Of a stretch of DNA of 64,000 bases, positions 899 to 63,347 are shown piece by piece. Position numbers and translations under genes: made by a program. The notes beneath the pieces are model-generated. The model was not told the DNA's origin. It was given only the letters and a program-made list of their open reading frames with translations, and made no database searches. Source of the stretch: an uncultured Opitutales bacterium (lineage in GTDB: Bacteria; Verrucomicrobiota; Verrucomicrobiia; Opitutales; Intestinicryptomonadaceae); the NCBI GenBank assembly GCA_944389195.1, contig CALXLM010000026.1, positions 62,001-126,000 on the forward strand, in the 5' to 3' direction. How positions within the stretch are numbered: position 1 is the first letter of the stretch; each line of letters begins with the position of its first letter.

Positions 899-951
899 CC
901 GAAAATCGTAATATTCCCGCAACCAGCGGTTTTATTTTACAATTCCCGCCG

Positions 952-1152
952 TTAGCGGTTTTCGTAGCGCTGGCGCAACATGTTATTGAAAGCCGCCACC
1001 TTGTTCTTGCGACGCTTGATTTCGCAAGGTTTTTCATAATAGCGCTTCTGCCGGATATCGCGGATAATCCCTTCGCGATCCAACTTTTTCTTGAGACGGC
1101 GCAACGCTTTTTCCATCGCCTCTCCTTTGCGCAATTTTACTTCTACCGGCAT
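952..1152 (-). CDS. rpsU: 30S ribosomal protein S21
   Basis: Small basic protein of the 30S subunit, 66 residues, starting MPVEVKLRKGEAMEKALRRL and continuing through the S21 hallmark LDREGIIRDIRQKRYYEKP with a basic tail. Two in-frame ATGs exist (1158 and 1152). I choose 1152 because a perfect AGGAGG lies 9 nt upstream of it but only 3 nt from the first, and because S21 proteins usually begin MP-V. This is one of very few genes here with a strong Shine-Dalgarno sequence. The start lies 34 bases after the 3' end of tRNA-Lys on the same strand, so the two are probably cotranscribed; a strong terminator follows. Confidence 0.96.
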   Translation of the reverse strand: MPVEVKLRKGEAMEKALRRLKKKLDREGIIRDIRQKRYYEKPCEIKRRKNKVAAFNNMLRQRYENR

Positions 1153-1186
1153 TACCATTCACCTCCTTGCAAAAAAAACGATTCGC

Positions 1187-1259
<73 letters not shown>

Positions 1260-1277
1260 AAAAATCAATAAGCGTTG

Positions 1278-1306
1278 CATAGTGGATATTCATACAGCGA
1301 GTGCAA
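1278..1306 (-). promoter_or_regulatory. Possible promoter of tRNA-Lys/rpsU
   Basis: On the minus strand TTGCAC (-35) is followed after 16 nt by CACTAT (-10), about 20 bases before the tRNA 5' end. The -10 match is poor, so this is tentative. Confidence 0.3.
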
Positions 1307-1395
1307 GAAAAAAAATTATTTTTTTTGGCATGAATGCCGTTATACTCCCCGTCCCGCCCGACGCGCGGCAAAATGCCGGTACGGTTTATTATTTG

Positions 1396-1425
1396 TTGAC
1401 GACCCGAAACATTTATATTCATAAT
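1396..1425 (+). promoter_or_regulatory. Promoter of the secreted esterase
   Basis: TTGACG (1396-1401), 18-nt spacer, CATAAT (1420-1425); both hexamers match the sigma-70 consensus at 5 of 6 positions. The -10 ends only 6 nt before the ATG at 1432, so transcription would start at or next to the start codon (leaderless mRNA). Confidence 0.55.
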
Positions 1426-1431
1426 AAAGCC

Positions 1432-2358
1432 ATGATGTCCGTATTATATAAAAATTTAATCTTAATCGGAATAATTGCGTTTGCGGCAACAAGCTCTGTT
1501 TTTGCCGGATCGGTCAAACCGAATACGCTTCTCGTCTGGCCGGACGGCAAAATGCCGGGTACCGCCGCAGAAAGCGACAAATGGAGGGGAACGTCGGTAT
1601 CGGCGGTAAAAAATCCGACGCTGGAGCTCTATAAGATAAACTCCGATGCCCCCACCCCCCTTGTAATCATATGTCCCGGAGGCGGATATAGCGGCCTCGC
1701 ATACGACCACGAGGGTAAACAGGTGGCGGAATGGATAAACAAGTTGGGAATGTCGGCGGCCATACTGAAATACCGCGTGCCGCGCAACCCGGAAGGCGCC
1801 CTTATGGACATACAAAGAGCCATAAGGCTTGCGCGGGCAAACGCTAAGCAATGGAACGCAAAGCCCGATAAAATTGCGGTTATAGGTTTTTCAGCCGGCG
1901 CTAACCTTTGCGCGCGGGCCTCCACAAACTTTTTAAAATCCTCTTATGAAAACGTCGACGAAGCCGATTCGCAATCGGCGCGCCCCAACCTCACCTGCCT
2001 CATATATCCGGCATACTGCGACGACCAGGGAAACAATACGCGCTGGAACGGAACTAAGACGAACTTTGACGCCGACTTGAACACGCTTTACAAGTTGGCG
2101 AAAAATCTCGACGTCTCAAAAGATTCGCCTCCGGTGTTTATAGCGCAATCGCTCGACGATAAAAACTACATAAATTCCGGATTGGCGTATTTTCTGGCCG
2201 CAAAAAAAGCCGGAATAAGCGCGAATCTGCACGTTTTTGAAAACGGAGGCCACGGATACGGCCTGGCCAACGCGCCCAAACACGCCGGGAAAATGTACGC
2301 CTCGTGGCCCGAACTTGCGGAAAACTGGTTTAAAAGCCGCGGATTTATCGGGAAATAG
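1432..2358 (+). CDS. Secreted alpha/beta-hydrolase, acetylxylan-esterase-like
   Basis: Predicted exported esterase of 308 residues. The ATG at 1432 gives a good signal peptide (MMSVLYKNLILIGIIAFAA, cleavage likely after SSVFA); the reading frame is open further upstream, but that part is not signal-like and overlaps the promoter. The fold shows the oxyanion block ICPGGGYSGLAYDHEG, the nucleophile elbow GFSAGANL, an acid in SLDDKNYI and the histidine in GGHGYG, as in the BD-FAE/acetylxylan esterase branch of alpha/beta hydrolases. This family usually removes acetyl groups from plant or host glycans; the exact substrate cannot be read. It stands alone, transcribed away from tRNA-Lys, with a hairpin terminator behind it. 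Confidence 0.85.
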   Translation: MMSVLYKNLILIGIIAFAATSSVFAGSVKPNTLLVWPDGKMPGTAAESDKWRGTSVSAVKNPTLELYKINSDAPTPLVIICPGGGYSGLAYDHEGKQVAEWINKLGMSAAILKYRVPRNPEGALMDIQRAIRLARANAKQWNAKPDKIAVIGFSAGANLCARASTNFLKSSYENVDEADSQSARPNLTCLIYPAYCDDQGNNTRWNGTKTNFDADLNTLYKLAKNLDVSKDSPPVFIAQSLDDKNYINSGLAYFLAAKKAGISANLHVFENGGHGYGLANAPKHAGKMYASWPELAENWFKSRGFIGK

Positions 2359-2417
2359 CGGAGTTTTAAGCGCCGCAAGAAGCATTGCGCCAAAAAAAAT
2401 ATCCGCTTTCTTTTCGC

Positions 2418-2448
2418 CGCGCGACCGCAATGCCGGCGCGCGTTTTTT
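2418..2448 (+). terminator. Probable intrinsic terminator after the esterase
   Basis: CGCGCG arms (2418-2423 and 2437-2442) around a 13-nt loop, followed immediately by TTTTTT. It lies 60 bases after the stop codon. Confidence 0.6.
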
Positions 2449-2528
2449 CAAATACGGACAAAACAGTCGCGGCCTCGTTTGCGCGGCGCGAGTTTAAAAA
2501 ATCCGCTTGAATAAAAACAACATCAGAC

Positions 2529-3170
2529 ATGAAAATAAACACATACGAACTCGGGCAGATAGGCACTAACAGCTACCTGCTTTATCCGGACGGCACCGAC
2601 GAAGCAATACTGATAGACGCCCCTCTGGACTCCGCAGAGGAAATACCCGCGCGCCTAAAGGCCGACAACAAGAAGCTTTCCTCCATTTTTCTCACGCACG
2701 GGCATTGGGACCACCTGTGGGACGCGGGGAAGCTGCAAAAATCGACCGGGGCAACGCTGTATGCCGGCGTCAAGGGTAAAGAACTTGTGGAAAGCCCGGA
2801 ATTTCAAAAAAGGAACCTTTTTGCCGATTCAGATTTCGACGCGGCAAAAATAGGAGTCGCAGTGTCAGACGGGGACGTTATAAGCCTTCCGGGGCTGAAA
2901 GCGGAATGCTTTGAAGCTGAGGGGCACTGCCCGGGCAGCATTCTGTATCTAATCTCCGACGGCGACAGGAAATACCTATTTGCCGGAGACGTGATATTTT
3001 CGGGAAGCGTCGGGCGGACCGACCTTTGGGGGGGGGATTTTAACGAGCTCAAGCGTTCAATCAGAAACAAGATCTATACCCTTCCGGACAACACTGTCAT
3101 CTTTCCGGGACACGGCGAACCCACCACCGTGGAAATAGAAAAACAATCAAATCCGTTCGTACGCCCGTAG
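2529..3170 (+). CDS. Metallo-beta-lactamase-fold hydrolase (glyoxalase II-like)
   Basis: Cytosolic hydrolase of 213 residues in the small glyoxalase II-like group of the metallo-beta-lactamase superfamily. Metal ligands are all visible: THGHWDH (His57, His59, Asp61, His62), EGHCPGS, FAGDVIFSGSVGRTD and FPGHGEPT. Proteins of this size and motif set are often thioesterases acting on glutathione or related thiol adducts, but the substrate is not encoded in the motifs. It is the first gene of a compact plus-strand run; ribD starts 3 nt after its stop. There is no Shine-Dalgarno sequence in front of the ATG. Confidence 0.88.
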   Translation: MKINTYELGQIGTNSYLLYPDGTDEAILIDAPLDSAEEIPARLKADNKKLSSIFLTHGHWDHLWDAGKLQKSTGATLYAGVKGKELVESPEFQKRNLFADSDFDAAKIGVAVSDGDVISLPGLKAECFEAEGHCPGSILYLISDGDRKYLFAGDVIFSGSVGRTDLWGGDFNELKRSIRNKIYTLPDNTVIFPGHGEPTTVEIEKQSNPFVRP

Positions 3171-3173
3171 AAA

Positions 3174-4283
3174 ATGCCAAACAACGCCGACGAGCTTTAT
3201 ATGCGTCGCGCGCTTGAGCTTGCGCGGCGCGGCTGGGGGGCGACCTCGCCCAATCCAATGGTCGGCGCCGTGCTTGTAAAAAACGGCGCCGTAATCGGCG
3301 AAGGCTGGCACAAACGCGACGGCATGCCGCATGCGGAAATAGAATGCCTCAAAAACGCCTCCGAGACGCCAAAGGGAGCCGCCATTTACGTCACGCTCGA
3401 GCCGTGCTCCACGCGGGGCCGCACGGGCGCCTGCACCGAAGCACTGGTTTCCGCCGGGGTATCGGCGGTAAAAATAGGCGCTCTCGACCCGAATCCAGCG
3501 CATTCCGGACGGGCGGTGGAAATCTTCCGCAAAGCCGGCATCAAATGTGAAACAGGAATTCTTGAAAGGGAATGTTCCGAGCTAAATTTCATATTCAATT
3601 TTTCAATTGTCAAAAAATCCCCCCTTGTGGCGCTCAAATACGCCATGTCGTCCGACGGGAAACTTACGTCAGAGCGCGGCAAGCGGACGCGCATAACCGG
3701 AAGCAAAGCTGCCGCCGACACAATGAAATGGCGCAGGCTGTTTTCGTCAATAGGCGTAGGGCGCGGAACTCTCGAAATCGACGACCCATCCCTTACATCT
3801 CGCATGGAGGGCGAGGAAGAATCGTGCGCCCCCCGCCTCGTTTTCGACGCGCGGCTGGGCGTAGCCGGACTTGAAAACTTTCAAAAGTTCAAGGTTTTTT
3901 CAGACAAATTCCGAAGCCTTACGCGGGTCGTATGCCAAAAGGACGCCCCTTCGGAAAGGGAAAAATCCCTCAAATCCGCCGGAATAACGGTTATGAAAAT
4001 CGGCGCGGCTGCCGGCTCGGCCGAATTCTGGAGGGAACTTAAAGAAAGGCTCTATTCTGAGCGCATAACATCGCTATATATCGAGGGGGGCGCCGGGCTG
4101 ATGAAGTCGGTTTGCGATGCGCGAGCGGCGGACTTCGCGTTTGAATACCGCTCCCCCTCCGCGGCGGGCCCGCGCGGCCTCGACGCGTTCGAAAGCGGGA
4201 AGCGCCCGTTTGAAATCGACGGGCGTACGGTAAAACTCGGCGCCGATTCCCTCGAATTCGGAACTGTGAAATGGACCCGCTGA
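3174..4283 (+). CDS. ribD: Riboflavin biosynthesis deaminase/reductase RibD
   Basis: Bifunctional cytosolic enzyme for the second and third steps of riboflavin synthesis: deamination of the pyrimidine intermediate, then NADPH reduction of its ribosyl side chain. Residues 1-145 are the cytidine-deaminase-like domain with zinc ligands in PHAEIEC and TLEPCSTRGRTGAC; the residue after PCS is Thr where most RibD proteins have His. Residues 150-369 are the reductase domain (ALKYAMSSDGKL, TRITG, YIEGGAGLMKS). Length 369 is normal. No other rib gene is in the window and I saw no FMN riboswitch upstream. The 3' end overlaps the next gene by 13 nt. Confidence 0.95.
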   Translation: MPNNADELYMRRALELARRGWGATSPNPMVGAVLVKNGAVIGEGWHKRDGMPHAEIECLKNASETPKGAAIYVTLEPCSTRGRTGACTEALVSAGVSAVKIGALDPNPAHSGRAVEIFRKAGIKCETGILERECSELNFIFNFSIVKKSPLVALKYAMSSDGKLTSERGKRTRITGSKAAADTMKWRRLFSSIGVGRGTLEIDDPSLTSRMEGEEESCAPRLVFDARLGVAGLENFQKFKVFSDKFRSLTRVVCQKDAPSEREKSLKSAGITVMKIGAAAGSAEFWRELKERLYSERITSLYIEGGAGLMKSVCDARAADFAFEYRSPSAAGPRGLDAFESGKRPFEIDGRTVKLGADSLEFGTVKWTR

Positions 4284-26133: not shown

Positions 26134-26169
26134 TTAGATTAATCTAACTTTTGTGGAATCATTTATAAA
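26134..26169 (+). promoter_or_regulatory. Palindromic operator candidate and -10 of the metal ATPase
   Basis: The perfect palindrome TTAGATTAATCTAA (26134-26147) sits where the -35 of a TATAAA box (26164-26169) would be; no good -35 hexamer is present. TTAG/CTAA ends recall the half-sites of DtxR/MntR-type metal regulators, but this is only a resemblance. The TATAAA ends 6 nt before the ATG. Confidence 0.5.
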
Positions 26170-26175
26170 ACAGCC

Positions 26176-28428
26176 ATGGAAAACGATAAATCCAAATCTT
26201 GCAAAAGCGCAAAAAAGGCCGTCGCGAAAGACCTTTTGCCAGAAAACGGCGAATGCTGTAGTTCCGCAGAGCGTTGCGGAACTGCAGGCACGCAAATGCG
26301 GAAAGTCCGGCAAGCTTCCCAATCCGGTGAAAAAAAAGGCGCAGCTTGCAAAGCGTCCTCCCGCCATTGCCACCACTCCGAAAGCAATTCCGCCCACCCG
26401 TGCTGTTCCAAGCACAGCTCCGCGCATTCCTGCCATCGGGGAGGCGGCCACGAGCATTCGTGCTGTTCAAAAGACGGATCGCCGCATTCATGCTGTTCGG
26501 GAAACGGGAAACGAACCCTTATTTCAACACCCGCAAAACTTTGGATTTCCGCCATATCGCTCATAACGGGATTTTTTCTGTCCAAAGCAATTTCTAATTT
26601 CCAACCTCTGGCCGACCCGTCGTGGATAGCCGTGATTCTGTGCGGACTTCCGATTTTTTGCGCGGCCCGCGAAGCCCTTTGCGCCGGGAAAATCGGGGCT
26701 CCGGCCCTCGTTTCCCTGGCGATGATAGCGACAATATCGCTTCAGTTTGCGGCGTTTTTCGGCGTCGGAACGGCGGAAGGCGCGCACAGCAATTTTATTT
26801 TCGCCGCCGGGGAAATCGCATTTTTGATGGCTTGCGGGGCGGCTCTTGAAGAGCGAACGTTAAGAAAAGCGGCCTCTGACGTAAAAAGACTTTCAGAACT
26901 CACGCCGCGCGTGGCTTTCGTAAAACTGCCGGACGGGAAAATACGCGAAACGCCTTCGGACGAATTAAAACCCGGGGATATCGTCGTGTTAAAACCCCAT
27001 TCCATGATTCCAGCCGATGGAACCATAACGCGCGGCGCCACTGAAGTGGACCAGTCAAATTTAACCGGAGAATCGTTACCTGTGGAAAAGAAAGTAGGCG
27101 ACGAGCTTTTTGCCGCCACGACAAACCTTTCAGGCGTTGTCGAAATGTCGGTGACAAAATCGGGGATAGATTCCGCAGCCGGAAGGCTTTCAAAACTCGT
27201 CGAGGAGGCTGCGGGAACGCGGGCCCCCATTTCGCGAATAGCAAATAAATGGGCGGCGCGCCTAGTTCTGGCGGCCTTTGCGGCTTCCGTAGCGATATTT
27301 TTCATAGTCAAATTCGGATTCGGACTTTCCTCAATGACCGCCCTTATAAGGTCGGCCACCGCGCTTACAGTTTTCTGCCCGTGCGCGTTCGTTTTGGCGA
27401 CGCCCACAGCCATATCCGCCGCAATAGGAAATTTATCCAGGCGCGGAATCGTCGTCAAAAGCGGATCGGCATTGGAGGAGTTTTCAAAAGTGGACGCCGT
27501 CATTTTCGACAAAACCGGCACTTTGACGAGAGGGAAAATATCAGTTTCTGCCGCTATGCCTCTCGACGGAGATACCGTAAGATTGGCGGGCATGGCGGCG
27601 ACTGCGGAGCGATTTTCGGAACACCCCATCGCCAAGGCCGTCGCAAGTTTTGCAAAATCACTCGGAGCCAGTCCGGCAGACGCCGAATCTACGTTGTCGC
27701 ATCCGGGAGTCGGCGTTTCGTGCAATTCCAAGTTCGGTAAAATACAAGTTGCAAAGGCTTCTGAATTCGAATCGGAAATAAATTCCGACAAAAAGCTGGA
27801 AAAATTCGCGGCGCAATACTGCGGAAAGACAATCGTCGCAGTCTCGCTCGACGGCAGGCTGGCAGGGCTTATGGCGCTTGGAGATAAACTGCGCGAAAAC
27901 TCCGCAAAAACCGTATCTGAACTAAAATCTCTCGGTTGTGAAGTGGCAATGGTCACAGGAGACAGCGAAAAAAGCGCCTCGGTTACGGCAAAACTGCTGG
28001 GCATAGAAAACGTCGTTGCCGCGGCTATGCCCGAAACTAAATTCGCCGAAGTTTTAAAATTAAAAAACAAAAAAAAGTCTGTTTGCATGGTAGGCGACGG
28101 TGTAAACGACGCTCCGGCTCTCGCCGCCTCCGATGTATCCGTAGCCGTTGGAAAAGTCGGGAACGACATAGCCGTTGAAAACGCCGACATCACGCTGCTT
28201 TCAGACGACATATACGACGTGTGTCGGATTCTCAAATTCTCAAGAAGCGTGCTCGCAACCATAAGGGCGAACATGGCGCTATCGCTTGCCGTAAGCGCGA
28301 CAGCCATCTGCGCTTCGGCCTTCGGCATTTTAAATCCAGTGACCGGCGCCCTGCTCCACAACATATCGTCTATCACGGTTGTCGGAAATTCCGCGCGGCT
28401 TCTGAGATCTAAAAAAGGCTTCTCATAA
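26176..28428 (+). CDS. P1B-type heavy-metal ATPase with Cys/His-rich N-terminus
   Basis: Inner-membrane pump of 750 residues exporting a transition metal with ATP. The first 112 residues hold 13 Cys and 10 His, including four imperfect repeats of about ten residues around H-[PS]-C-[CH] (residues 74-107), in place of the usual ferredoxin-like HMA domains. Then come the membrane segments, the actuator loop TGES, the CPC metal site in VFCPCAFVLATP, the phosphorylated Asp in FDKTGTLT, the HP motif in SEHPIAKA and GDGVNDAPAL. The last membrane helix carries HNISSITVVGNSARLL rather than the Cu-type MxxSS or Zn-type DxG; HNxSS also occurs in mycobacterial CtpC-like pumps. The metal is therefore uncertain. 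Confidence 0.93.
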   Translation: MENDKSKSCKSAKKAVAKDLLPENGECCSSAERCGTAGTQMRKVRQASQSGEKKGAACKASSRHCHHSESNSAHPCCSKHSSAHSCHRGGGHEHSCCSKDGSPHSCCSGNGKRTLISTPAKLWISAISLITGFFLSKAISNFQPLADPSWIAVILCGLPIFCAAREALCAGKIGAPALVSLAMIATISLQFAAFFGVGTAEGAHSNFIFAAGEIAFLMACGAALEERTLRKAASDVKRLSELTPRVAFVKLPDGKIRETPSDELKPGDIVVLKPHSMIPADGTITRGATEVDQSNLTGESLPVEKKVGDELFAATTNLSGVVEMSVTKSGIDSAAGRLSKLVEEAAGTRAPISRIANKWAARLVLAAFAASVAIFFIVKFGFGLSSMTALIRSATALTVFCPCAFVLATPTAISAAIGNLSRRGIVVKSGSALEEFSKVDAVIFDKTGTLTRGKISVSAAMPLDGDTVRLAGMAATAERFSEHPIAKAVASFAKSLGASPADAESTLSHPGVGVSCNSKFGKIQVAKASEFESEINSDKKLEKFAAQYCGKTIVAVSLDGRLAGLMALGDKLRENSAKTVSELKSLGCEVAMVTGDSEKSASVTAKLLGIENVVAAAMPETKFAEVLKLKNKKKSVCMVGDGVNDAPALAASDVSVAVGKVGNDIAVENADITLLSDDIYDVCRILKFSRSVLATIRANMALSLAVSATAICASAFGILNPVTGALLHNISSITVVGNSARLLRSKKGFS

Positions 28429-61901: not shown

Positions 61902-63347
61902 TTATCTTTTCCGGCGGCGAACTGCAAAGACTACAGCAAGCACACATAAAGTCAAAGCACAGAACGATGGTTCCGGAACAGACGCCCCCGCAACGACAAA
62001 ATCGGACACAGTCTCTGGATTCCAATCGACGCCATTGCCGTTAGAATCGTGAAACAGCCCGACAAACGCAGCACGCGCGTCTTTGTCGCTATCATATCCT
62101 GACATAACGACAGTTGTTCCCTCTCCGAGAACCAAAATATCGTTCACGCCTTCGGCCGCGCCTGCGTCAAATACGAAGTTTACTCTGTCACTGAGCGTCA
62201 GAGTGACGTTGTCGGCTATTTCAAATATACCGCCGTCTTTTATATCAATTGTCCCGCCGGTCAAAATGGAATCCACTGTCAATTTGGCAGAGATTTCATG
62301 CGCCAATACTGTAAAAATTTCGCCCTCAGACAAGACAAGTCCGCGATTTGAATTGCTGTCTCCGTTGTTAAAAGAGTAAATGACCCCGTCTCCCACCATG
62401 GAATTTTCAACGTTTCTAAACGAAACGTCGTCGATTGTAATCGTTTTTACATCGGAGGTGCCGAAATACGCCACGGTAGAACCTCTGAGATCTATGGATT
62501 TTAATGTTTGGGTATCCGAATTTGCCCTCTGTCCCATGGCTTTGGCAAACATCTCGGCGTTAACGTTTATAAACTTAACGTCGTGGGCAATCAGCGTATC
62601 TACCGACGTTTTCGCGTTTATGTCTATGCCGCTCCATGAATTTACTGTGGAACCGCTTATGTTTATATTTTTTACAGTATTTCCCTTTAAGCAAAGTGCC
62701 GAAGCCATCGTCGCTCCGTCGAACTCGTATCCGGCCATCGAATCGATACATCCCTTAAAGGTAGAATTTGAAAAATCGATATTTTCTACATTGCCAGACA
62801 GCGTGACATTGCCGTCGATGGCTCCGAAGGAAACAAACGTACTGCCCGAAAAGTTTACATTTTTCAAAAAGCCGTTTGATACAACTGCGGAACTTCTTAC
62901 CGCGCTTGACGTGGCGCTGAAACTGCTTCCCGAAAAATCGACATTTTCAAGGCTTGAATCTTCCGAAATATAAAAACCGTATAAATCATAGTTGGAGGTT
63001 CCCGATATCTTCAGATTGCGAAAATCGGAATCGATAATCGAGCTTTTTTCAATTGAAAGAACGCTTGGAGCATAAGCCGTCAAACCCAACTCGGATTTCA
63101 TTATCGGGAACCTGTCGGCATGGACGGTATTTACCGATACGCTTTCCATTCCGGAATAGTTTGCACCGTCCAAATTCAAGCTGCTAAATGCGGAGAAGCC
63201 CCTGCTATCCGTATAGACGCCGTTTGCGTCGTAGGAATACCCCTCACCGTCCGCTGTTGCATACTGCCATTCTTGAGCCGCCAAAATTCCCGGGAAAAAA
63301 GCCGCCATGAAAGCTGTTAAAAATATTTTTATGATAATTCTCATCAT
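61902..63347 (-). CDS. PEP-CTERM secreted beta-solenoid protein
   Basis: Exported protein of 481 residues; start ATG ATG at 63347/63344, signal peptide about residues 1-24 (KIFLTAFMAAFFPGILAAQ). The centre (about 85-310) is built of repeated NxxFSxSxF-type coils (NVDFSGSSFSA, NVNFSGSTFVS, NIDFSNSTFKG, NINISGSTVNS), a right-handed beta-solenoid. Autotransporter-like EGVNDILVLGEGTTVVMSG follows. The C-terminus is a PEP-CTERM tag: VPEPSFCALTLCVLAVVFAV and RRRKR, the sorting signal cut by exosortase. Function is probably surface display or biofilm matrix. Confidence 0.85.
   Translation of the reverse strand: MMRIIIKIFLTAFMAAFFPGILAAQEWQYATADGEGYSYDANGVYTDSRGFSAFSSLNLDGANYSGMESVSVNTVHADRFPIMKSELGLTAYAPSVLSIEKSSIIDSDFRNLKISGTSNYDLYGFYISEDSSLENVDFSGSSFSATSSAVRSSAVVSNGFLKNVNFSGSTFVSFGAIDGNVTLSGNVENIDFSNSTFKGCIDSMAGYEFDGATMASALCLKGNTVKNINISGSTVNSWSGIDINAKTSVDTLIAHDVKFINVNAEMFAKAMGQRANSDTQTLKSIDLRGSTVAYFGTSDVKTITIDDVSFRNVENSMVGDGVIYSFNNGDSNSNRGLVLSEGEIFTVLAHEISAKLTVDSILTGGTIDIKDGGIFEIADNVTLTLSDRVNFVFDAGAAEGVNDILVLGEGTTVVMSGYDSDKDARAAFVGLFHDSNGNGVDWNPETVSDFVVAGASVPEPSFCALTLCVLAVVFAVRRRKR

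Follow-up and report, generated by a model that had tools for sequence, protein, structure and literature searches.

The window, the whole 64,000-nucleotide stretch analysed here, contains a complete gene for a P1B-type metal-transporting ATPase, with a perfect palindrome shortly before its start codon. The features of the locus are as follows.

26134-26147, no strand: perfect palindrome TTAGATTAATCTAA, a candidate operator of the DtxR-family type, 28 nt before the ATG of the pump gene
26176-28428, plus strand: P1B-type metal-transporting ATPase of 750 aa, CPC + HNISS type (TIGR01525; Pfam E1-E2_ATPase and Hydrolase; CopA and ZntA are the best solved relatives)
26176-26523, plus strand: Cys/His-rich N-terminal head, residues 1-116, predicted to be disordered (Cys/His count; pLDDT)
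26392-26511, plus strand: four tandem 10-residue units, AHPCCSKHSS / AHSCHRGGGH / EHSCCSKDGS / PHSCCSGNGK, residues 73-112 (periodicity, shuffles, codon resampling, DNA repeats)
27376-27384, plus strand: CPC metal-site motif, residues 401-403, aligned with C392/C394 of E. coli ZntA and with CopA; invariant in A1
27508-27522, plus strand: DKTGT phosphorylation motif, residues 445-449
28294-28296, plus strand: S707, aligned with K693 of ZntA; Asn in most relatives, Ser in L001, L002, L011 and L012
28357-28371, plus strand: HNISS, residues 728-732; H728 is aligned with D714 of ZntA and with Met in CopA

Here L001 is the window's pump and L002 its nearest relative (61-62% identical), found in genome G008. 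The genes flanking the pump are divergent and convergent, so the pump gene probably stands alone. A GDSL-esterase gene is the upstream neighbour both in the window, where it was recognised by Pfam, and in G008, where it was recognised by eye. At the far end of the window, a secreted protein (61902-63347, minus strand) terminates in a tail (VPEPS...RRRKR) that we take to be PEP-CTERM-like.

The pump passes the TIGR01525 heavy-metal ATPase profile (493 bits against a cut-off of 346.25), and in a Pfam search at E-values up to 1 the E1-E2 ATPase and hydrolase domains were its sole matches. The HMA domain found no match at this threshold and a motif search found no GMTCxxC, in agreement with the preliminary description, which had noted a head devoid of such a domain. 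Of the solved folds, CopA (7r0g) matches best, and among zinc pumps ZntA (4umw). The P1B-3 pumps are characterised by CPH in TM6, and the P1B-4 pumps by SPC with HEG[GS]T; SPC with HEGST is the family motif of the PfeT/FrvA/PmtA type and is seen in three of the rows compared (L022, L025 and L098). The window's pump carries CPC, which sets it apart from P1B-3, and CPC with HNISS, which sets it apart from P1B-4, and it falls outside both clades. P1B-1 (Cu+) pumps have YN in TM7 and MxxSS in TM8, and P1B-2 (Zn2+/Cd2+/Pb2+) pumps Lys in TM7 and DxG in TM8 (PMC4932525, excerpt). At the P1B-1 positions our pump has V706-S707 and HNISS, and it scores 360.9 bits with TIGR01511, below the cut-off of 397; at the P1B-2 positions, K693 and D714 of ZntA, it has S707 and H728. 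With TIGR01512 it scores 391.4 bits, above the cut-off of 313.5; the tree nevertheless places it opposite the P1B-2 side. Membership in P1B-1, -2, -3 or -4 is thus ruled out by the membrane-site residues together with the tree.

In the alignment with E. coli ZntA and CopA, the last helix reads H728-N729-I730-S731-S732, the HNxSS of the preliminary description, and the SS of MxxSS is kept in TM8. As judged from these residues, the membrane signature is not a textbook signature for Cu, Zn or Co, yet it is already known: CtpC of Mycobacterium tuberculosis, which combines CPC with an HN conserved in its last core helix, has been called 'P1B6-like' (PMC9374683, excerpt), and the CPC and H728-N729 of the present pump correspond to that usage. 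The earlier view of HNxSS as non-standard therefore holds in so far as the alignment and trees set the pump apart from the usual subgroups for Cu, Zn and Co, but the signature itself had been described, and HNxSS cannot be regarded as unprecedented. The combination of CPC and HN was found in 35 of the 114 other classified pumps, a share that is no census, the pumps having been fetched by similarity and one (L007, HNATS) having been missed by the pattern.

Among the first 112 residues of the pump are 13 Cys and 10 His, an excess with a binomial tail of 2.9e-14 given how frequent C+H are in the rest of the protein; our recount agrees with the earlier figures. Residues 1-72 contain scattered Cys without a clear repeat; clear repeats start at residue 73 (26392). 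What had been described as four repeats of about ten residues turned out to be sharper, with four abutting units of exactly 10 residues each, built around H-[PS]-C-[CH]. Within residues 63-112, self-identity amounts to 16 matches at an offset of 10, 13 at 20 and 7 at 30, and the best 18-residue self-match of the head was equalled in 1 of 2000 shuffles. DNA repeats in the head are spaced by 30 and 60 nt, and two 18-codon copies have a DNA identity above the level forced by their amino acids (33 of 5000 codon-resampled pairs were as high). Because the DNA copies are more alike than the amino acids require and are regularly spaced, the sequence points to tandem duplication as the origin of the repeats. 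The AlphaFold model, based on an alignment of nine sequences, has a pLDDT below 50 over residues 1-116 and a normal P1B core, mostly at 70-90. The GC3 of the head (0.56) matches that of the rest of the gene (0.55); an artefact of frame or start was rejected in view of this match, the open frame and the retention of Cys described below.

Relatives were searched for in 54 genomes, 41 of which gave a match, and a scan of named genomes yielded 80 loci. A quick tree of 60 rows and a careful tree of 39 of those rows agree. In both, the window's pump belongs to a clade (A) with its counterparts from the same bacterial family and one pump of an uncultured Clostridia bacterium (L047), and its sister clade (B) includes another pump from the window's genome (C12:38148-39932) and pumps of Clostridia and Victivallis. 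Support in the careful tree is 100/100 for A, 100/99 for B and 100/100 for A+B; L064, assigned to B for the quick tree, fell outside B and was placed with 'other HN' pumps in the careful tree. Clades A and B lie outside the rows of P1B-1, P1B-2, P1B-3 and P1B-4, on the P1B-1/P1B-3 side and away from P1B-2/P1B-4, in a tree whose root is unknown. The actinobacterial HN rows L084 and L107, which stand in for CtpC, and L125 group outside A+B at 87/83. L125, a gammaproteobacterial HN pump (HNFST), has an N-terminal part of 213 residues with 27 His, whose start resembles, by eye, a membrane domain of the DUF697 type joined to the ATPase.

A head enriched in Cys and His exists in all 14 clade-A rows with a 5' end (L027, whose contig begins inside the gene, was left out), with lengths of 19-133 residues and 14-40% C+H, whereas C+H make up 2-4% of the remainder of each protein. 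The shortest are those of L008 (19 residues; 3 C, 2 H) and L003 (36 residues; 3 C, 3 H). In contrast, none of the 17 clade-B rows has such a head; only 9-33 residues precede the first helix, with no Cys and at most one His. These HN[AG][GS]S pumps share with clade A the CPC, the HN and a CsoR-type neighbour (13 of 17), and differ in the missing head. The Cys/His head is therefore real and conserved within clade A, and the pump is neither a member of an ordinary Cu or Zn subgroup nor alone among its close relatives in having a head. Between L004 and L006, the identity is 89% in the core and 39% in the head, where Cys is kept at 15 of 22 positions and other residues at 37 of 110 (p 0.003). By these comparisons the head drifts fast while preferentially retaining Cys, and because of this retention it looks translated and selected. 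In the L047 pump (927-3080), the head is dominated by His (9 Cys, 23 His) and built from repeats of the CSCGHEH type, which makes it a second grammar for such a head. Directly 3' of three Clostridia clade-B pumps are genes for membrane proteins of 57-63 residues, probably with two helices, which are possible partners (L049:5800-5973, L056:5794-5985 and L057:5740-5919).

A CsoR-family repressor gene is located directly upstream of the pump in 12 of the 14 clade-A rows, the exceptions being the window's own pump and that of G008. Among the clade-B rows that lack the usual CsoR-type neighbour, L049 carries such a gene on the opposite strand, and in L052, L059 and L060 no gene of this type could be recognised. 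The repressors beside the relatives' pumps have a C-H-C triad, which we take to be a copper-type ligand set, and RicR was the best NCBIfam model for the two tested, below its cut-off. In Clostridium sp. Marseille-P2415, two identical CsoR-type proteins (L053:601-876 and 3534-3809) are encoded within about 3 kb upstream of the clade-B pump. Inspection of the neighbour listings by eye gave no candidate for a PacL (DUF1490) or DUF6110 partner gene.

The exact 14-mer of the palindrome is present at only two sites in the 2.37-Mb genome, before the pump gene and before a dps-like gene, where about 0.007 would be expected by composition. It agrees with the DtxR consensus TTAGGTTAG(G/C)CTAACCTAA at 11 of the 14 first bases (PMC1382209, excerpt), and a related site, TTAGACAACCCTAA, lies upstream of the G008 pump. 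A looser pattern was found at six places in the window's genome, namely at the pump, dps and feoB, twice in the porin/hemY intergenic region and once inside a dxs-like coding sequence (named by eye). This number is not above composition (6 seen, 3.9 expected; backward control 0), so the argument for an operator rests on the exact 14-mer and the neighbouring genes. The matrix score of 25.4 for the site, against 8.2 for the next-best site in the window, is partly circular, the matrix having been built partly from the window's site. In relatives, the motif precedes feoA (G001, G003), feoB (G006), a DtxR-family gene (G006) and OprB-like porin genes (G003, G004, G006), all named by eye except the DtxR-family gene; 10 of the 19 site loci in relatives have no recognisable metal gene beside the site. 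By its likeness in sequence and the iron genes that share it, the site would belong to a DtxR-family regulon. The window's genome has a single DtxR-family gene, fused to a FeoA domain and situated directly before feoB, for which the best NCBIfam models are those of MntR, under the cut-off. In G008, neither the Dps gene nor the DtxR-family gene has such a site nearby, and none turned up at the Dps genes of the other relatives looked at or at the pump loci of the 12 relatives that have csoR beside the pump. A general role for Fur at the palindrome was rejected because G008 has a related site and no match to the FUR family, in a genome that is 94% complete. In the window's lineage, a CsoR-type switch thus appears to have been exchanged for one of DtxR type.

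Two further features of these loci were recorded. Tandem DtxR-type sites (L034:1441-1456 and 1500-1515, in G000:C48) lie between the genes of an OprB-like porin and a protoporphyrinogen oxidase, and with the sites at the porins of G003, G004 and G006 this hints at an iron-regulated outer-membrane porin. The DtxR-family regulator L186:5356-6030 (G000:C48) has a Cys-rich insert (MCCGCPNKNNKLACGNCPHS) between its dimerisation domain and C-terminal FeoA domain.

Our leading reading, with a probability of about 0.42, is a soft-metal exporter, most likely for Zn or Cd, which carries a tethered buffer tail and moved into an iron/manganese regulon. The pump, of the CPC + HN ('P1B6-like') kind, would export a soft or borderline transition metal, most likely Zn2+/Cd2+. 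The head, standing where HMA domains would be expected, most likely serves as a tethered and disordered buffer for metal, with the di-Cys tail of plant HMA4 as its functional analogue, and the earlier suggestion of a metal-buffering head born of tandem duplication is probable from the composition, repeats and DNA copies. The disordered Cys pairs and His of the cytosolic N-terminus would capture metal near the membrane and either pass it to a membrane site formed by CPC, H728, N729 and S732 or hold it while the pump works. The length of the string may change by tandem duplication of the 10-residue unit, and its capacity would then be easily retuned. With the CsoR-type switch gone and a putative DtxR-family operator in the promoter region, production of the pump in this lineage would be coupled to that of Dps and of Feo-type iron uptake, and the pump could expel other divalent metals entering when iron uptake is on.

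The clues to the metal disagree: Zn/Cd is suggested by the head and by CtpC, Cu(I) by the CsoR-type genes next to the relatives' pumps, and Fe/Mn by the DtxR-type operator. We rank Zn/Cd as most likely because the ligand chemistry and the single characterised HN/CPC pump, CtpC, which is needed for zinc resistance (PMC9374683, excerpt), concern transport itself, and regulators are exchangeable, as appears to be the case here. Several facts count against it. An iron/manganese-type operator is unusual for a zinc exporter; the HN clades side with P1B-1/P1B-3, away from ZntA, and the actinobacterial HN rows do not join A+B; the relatives' repressors come closest to the copper model RicR, although below its cut-off; and two of the heads are short.

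The strongest alternative, though a doubtful one, is a new kind of Fe(II)/Mn(II) efflux pump, in which a DtxR-family protein, either with its metal bound or through loss under oxidation, would govern dps together with the pump and thereby bring down free iron or manganese; in Bacillus, PerR and Fur act in this way on the P1B-4 iron exporter PfeT and on a Dps protein. The exact palindrome common to dps and the pump, the further sites at feoB and in the porin/hemY region, and the MntR-like regulator with its FeoA domain all suit this alternative. DtxR can activate dps and ftn, as for dps in Corynebacterium (PMC1382209, excerpt), and Mn export was once proposed for CtpC (PMC9374683, excerpt). However, the Cys-rich head fits softer metals, the known iron-exporting P-type ATPases are P1B4 (PMC7762939, excerpt, which also lists Nia there), and the csoR-neighboured relatives show no DtxR-type site. 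Much depends on the sign of control: a repressor shared with feoB would turn an iron exporter off at high iron, and the pump, made at low iron, would suit the clearing of metals from broad uptake, whereas an activating site would make an iron or manganese exporter likelier. A sigma-70 scan found no promoter near the pump gene on its strand, so repression and activation could not be distinguished.

It is also unlikely that the pump is a Cu(I)/Ag(I) exporter, a P1B-1 relative in which the Met of TM8 became His and a copper sponge replaced the HMA domains. The C-H-C repressors, which stand beside 12 of the 14 relatives with a head and 13 of the 17 without one and have RicR as top model, would fit copper, as would the P1B-1 side of the tree, the fold match to CopA and the retained SS; against this, the YN and MxxSS ligands are not retained, zinc is the metal linked to CtpC, which shares the CPC + HN signature, and the window's pump has no csoR neighbour. 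A head without a role in transport, either because it is a neutral extension of low complexity that drifts or because the true start is downstream (e.g. at M41), is improbable: the range of lengths, the low head identity of L004 and L006 and the failure to recognise a ribosome-binding site upstream by eye speak for it, but Cys is preferentially kept, all 14 clade members are enriched, and a start at M41 would still retain all four repeats.

The pump resembles several known systems in part. CtpC shares the CPC and the HN of the last core helix, and is likewise helped by a disordered metal-binding polypeptide, the separate protein PacL1; it differs in having an N-terminal metal-binding domain beside this partner, where the window's pump has a fused, Cys-rich disordered part, and its actinobacterial stand-ins lie apart from A+B. 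Plant HMA4 (P1B-2) also bears a cytosolic chain with many Cys pairs and His on a P1B pump, and the di-Cys tail of AtHMA4 binds about 11 Zn with a KD below 10 nM, or about 4 once the Cys pairs are removed (PMC6255694, excerpt). This tail, however, is C-terminal and richer (42-44 Cys), on a P1B-2 pump with an N-terminal metal-binding motif, and common descent is not implied. The P1B-4 iron exporters PfeT, FrvA and PmtA are P1B pumps under iron- or peroxide-responsive control (PMC7762939, excerpt), but are of the SPC + HEGST type, in another clade, and under Fur/PerR rather than a DtxR-type site. In the literature searched, as far as excerpts cover it, a bacterial P1B pump with a Cys/His head was not found named.

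For HN-type (P1B-6, P1B6-like) pumps, knowledge of the substrates is poor, and the role of N-terminal metal-binding parts in P1B pumps is unsettled (PMC9374683, excerpt). On a bolder interpretation, to which we would give little credence, a P1B6-like lineage replaced its folded metal-binding domains by an evolvable disordered sponge built of repeats, and one sub-lineage swapped its copper-type CsoR switch for the DtxR/MntR-type iron/manganese switch of the cell. The pump would then be a candidate for an exporter that responds to Fe(II)/Mn(II), lies outside P1B-4 and shares its control with Dps and Feo. Of most interest is the step that this lineage seems to have made from a CsoR-type switch to one of DtxR type, which lies outside the segment covered by the preliminary description. 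Natural pairs are on offer in this family: headed and headless sister pumps in one genome, heads of 19-133 residues, the window's copy having 10-residue units that can be counted, and orthologues under CsoR-type or DtxR-type switches. Such pairs would allow tests of whether a tethered disordered buffer sets the capacity, affinity or specificity of a pump, and, through the orthologues with differing switches, of whether a change of regulator leaves the metal of a pump the same.
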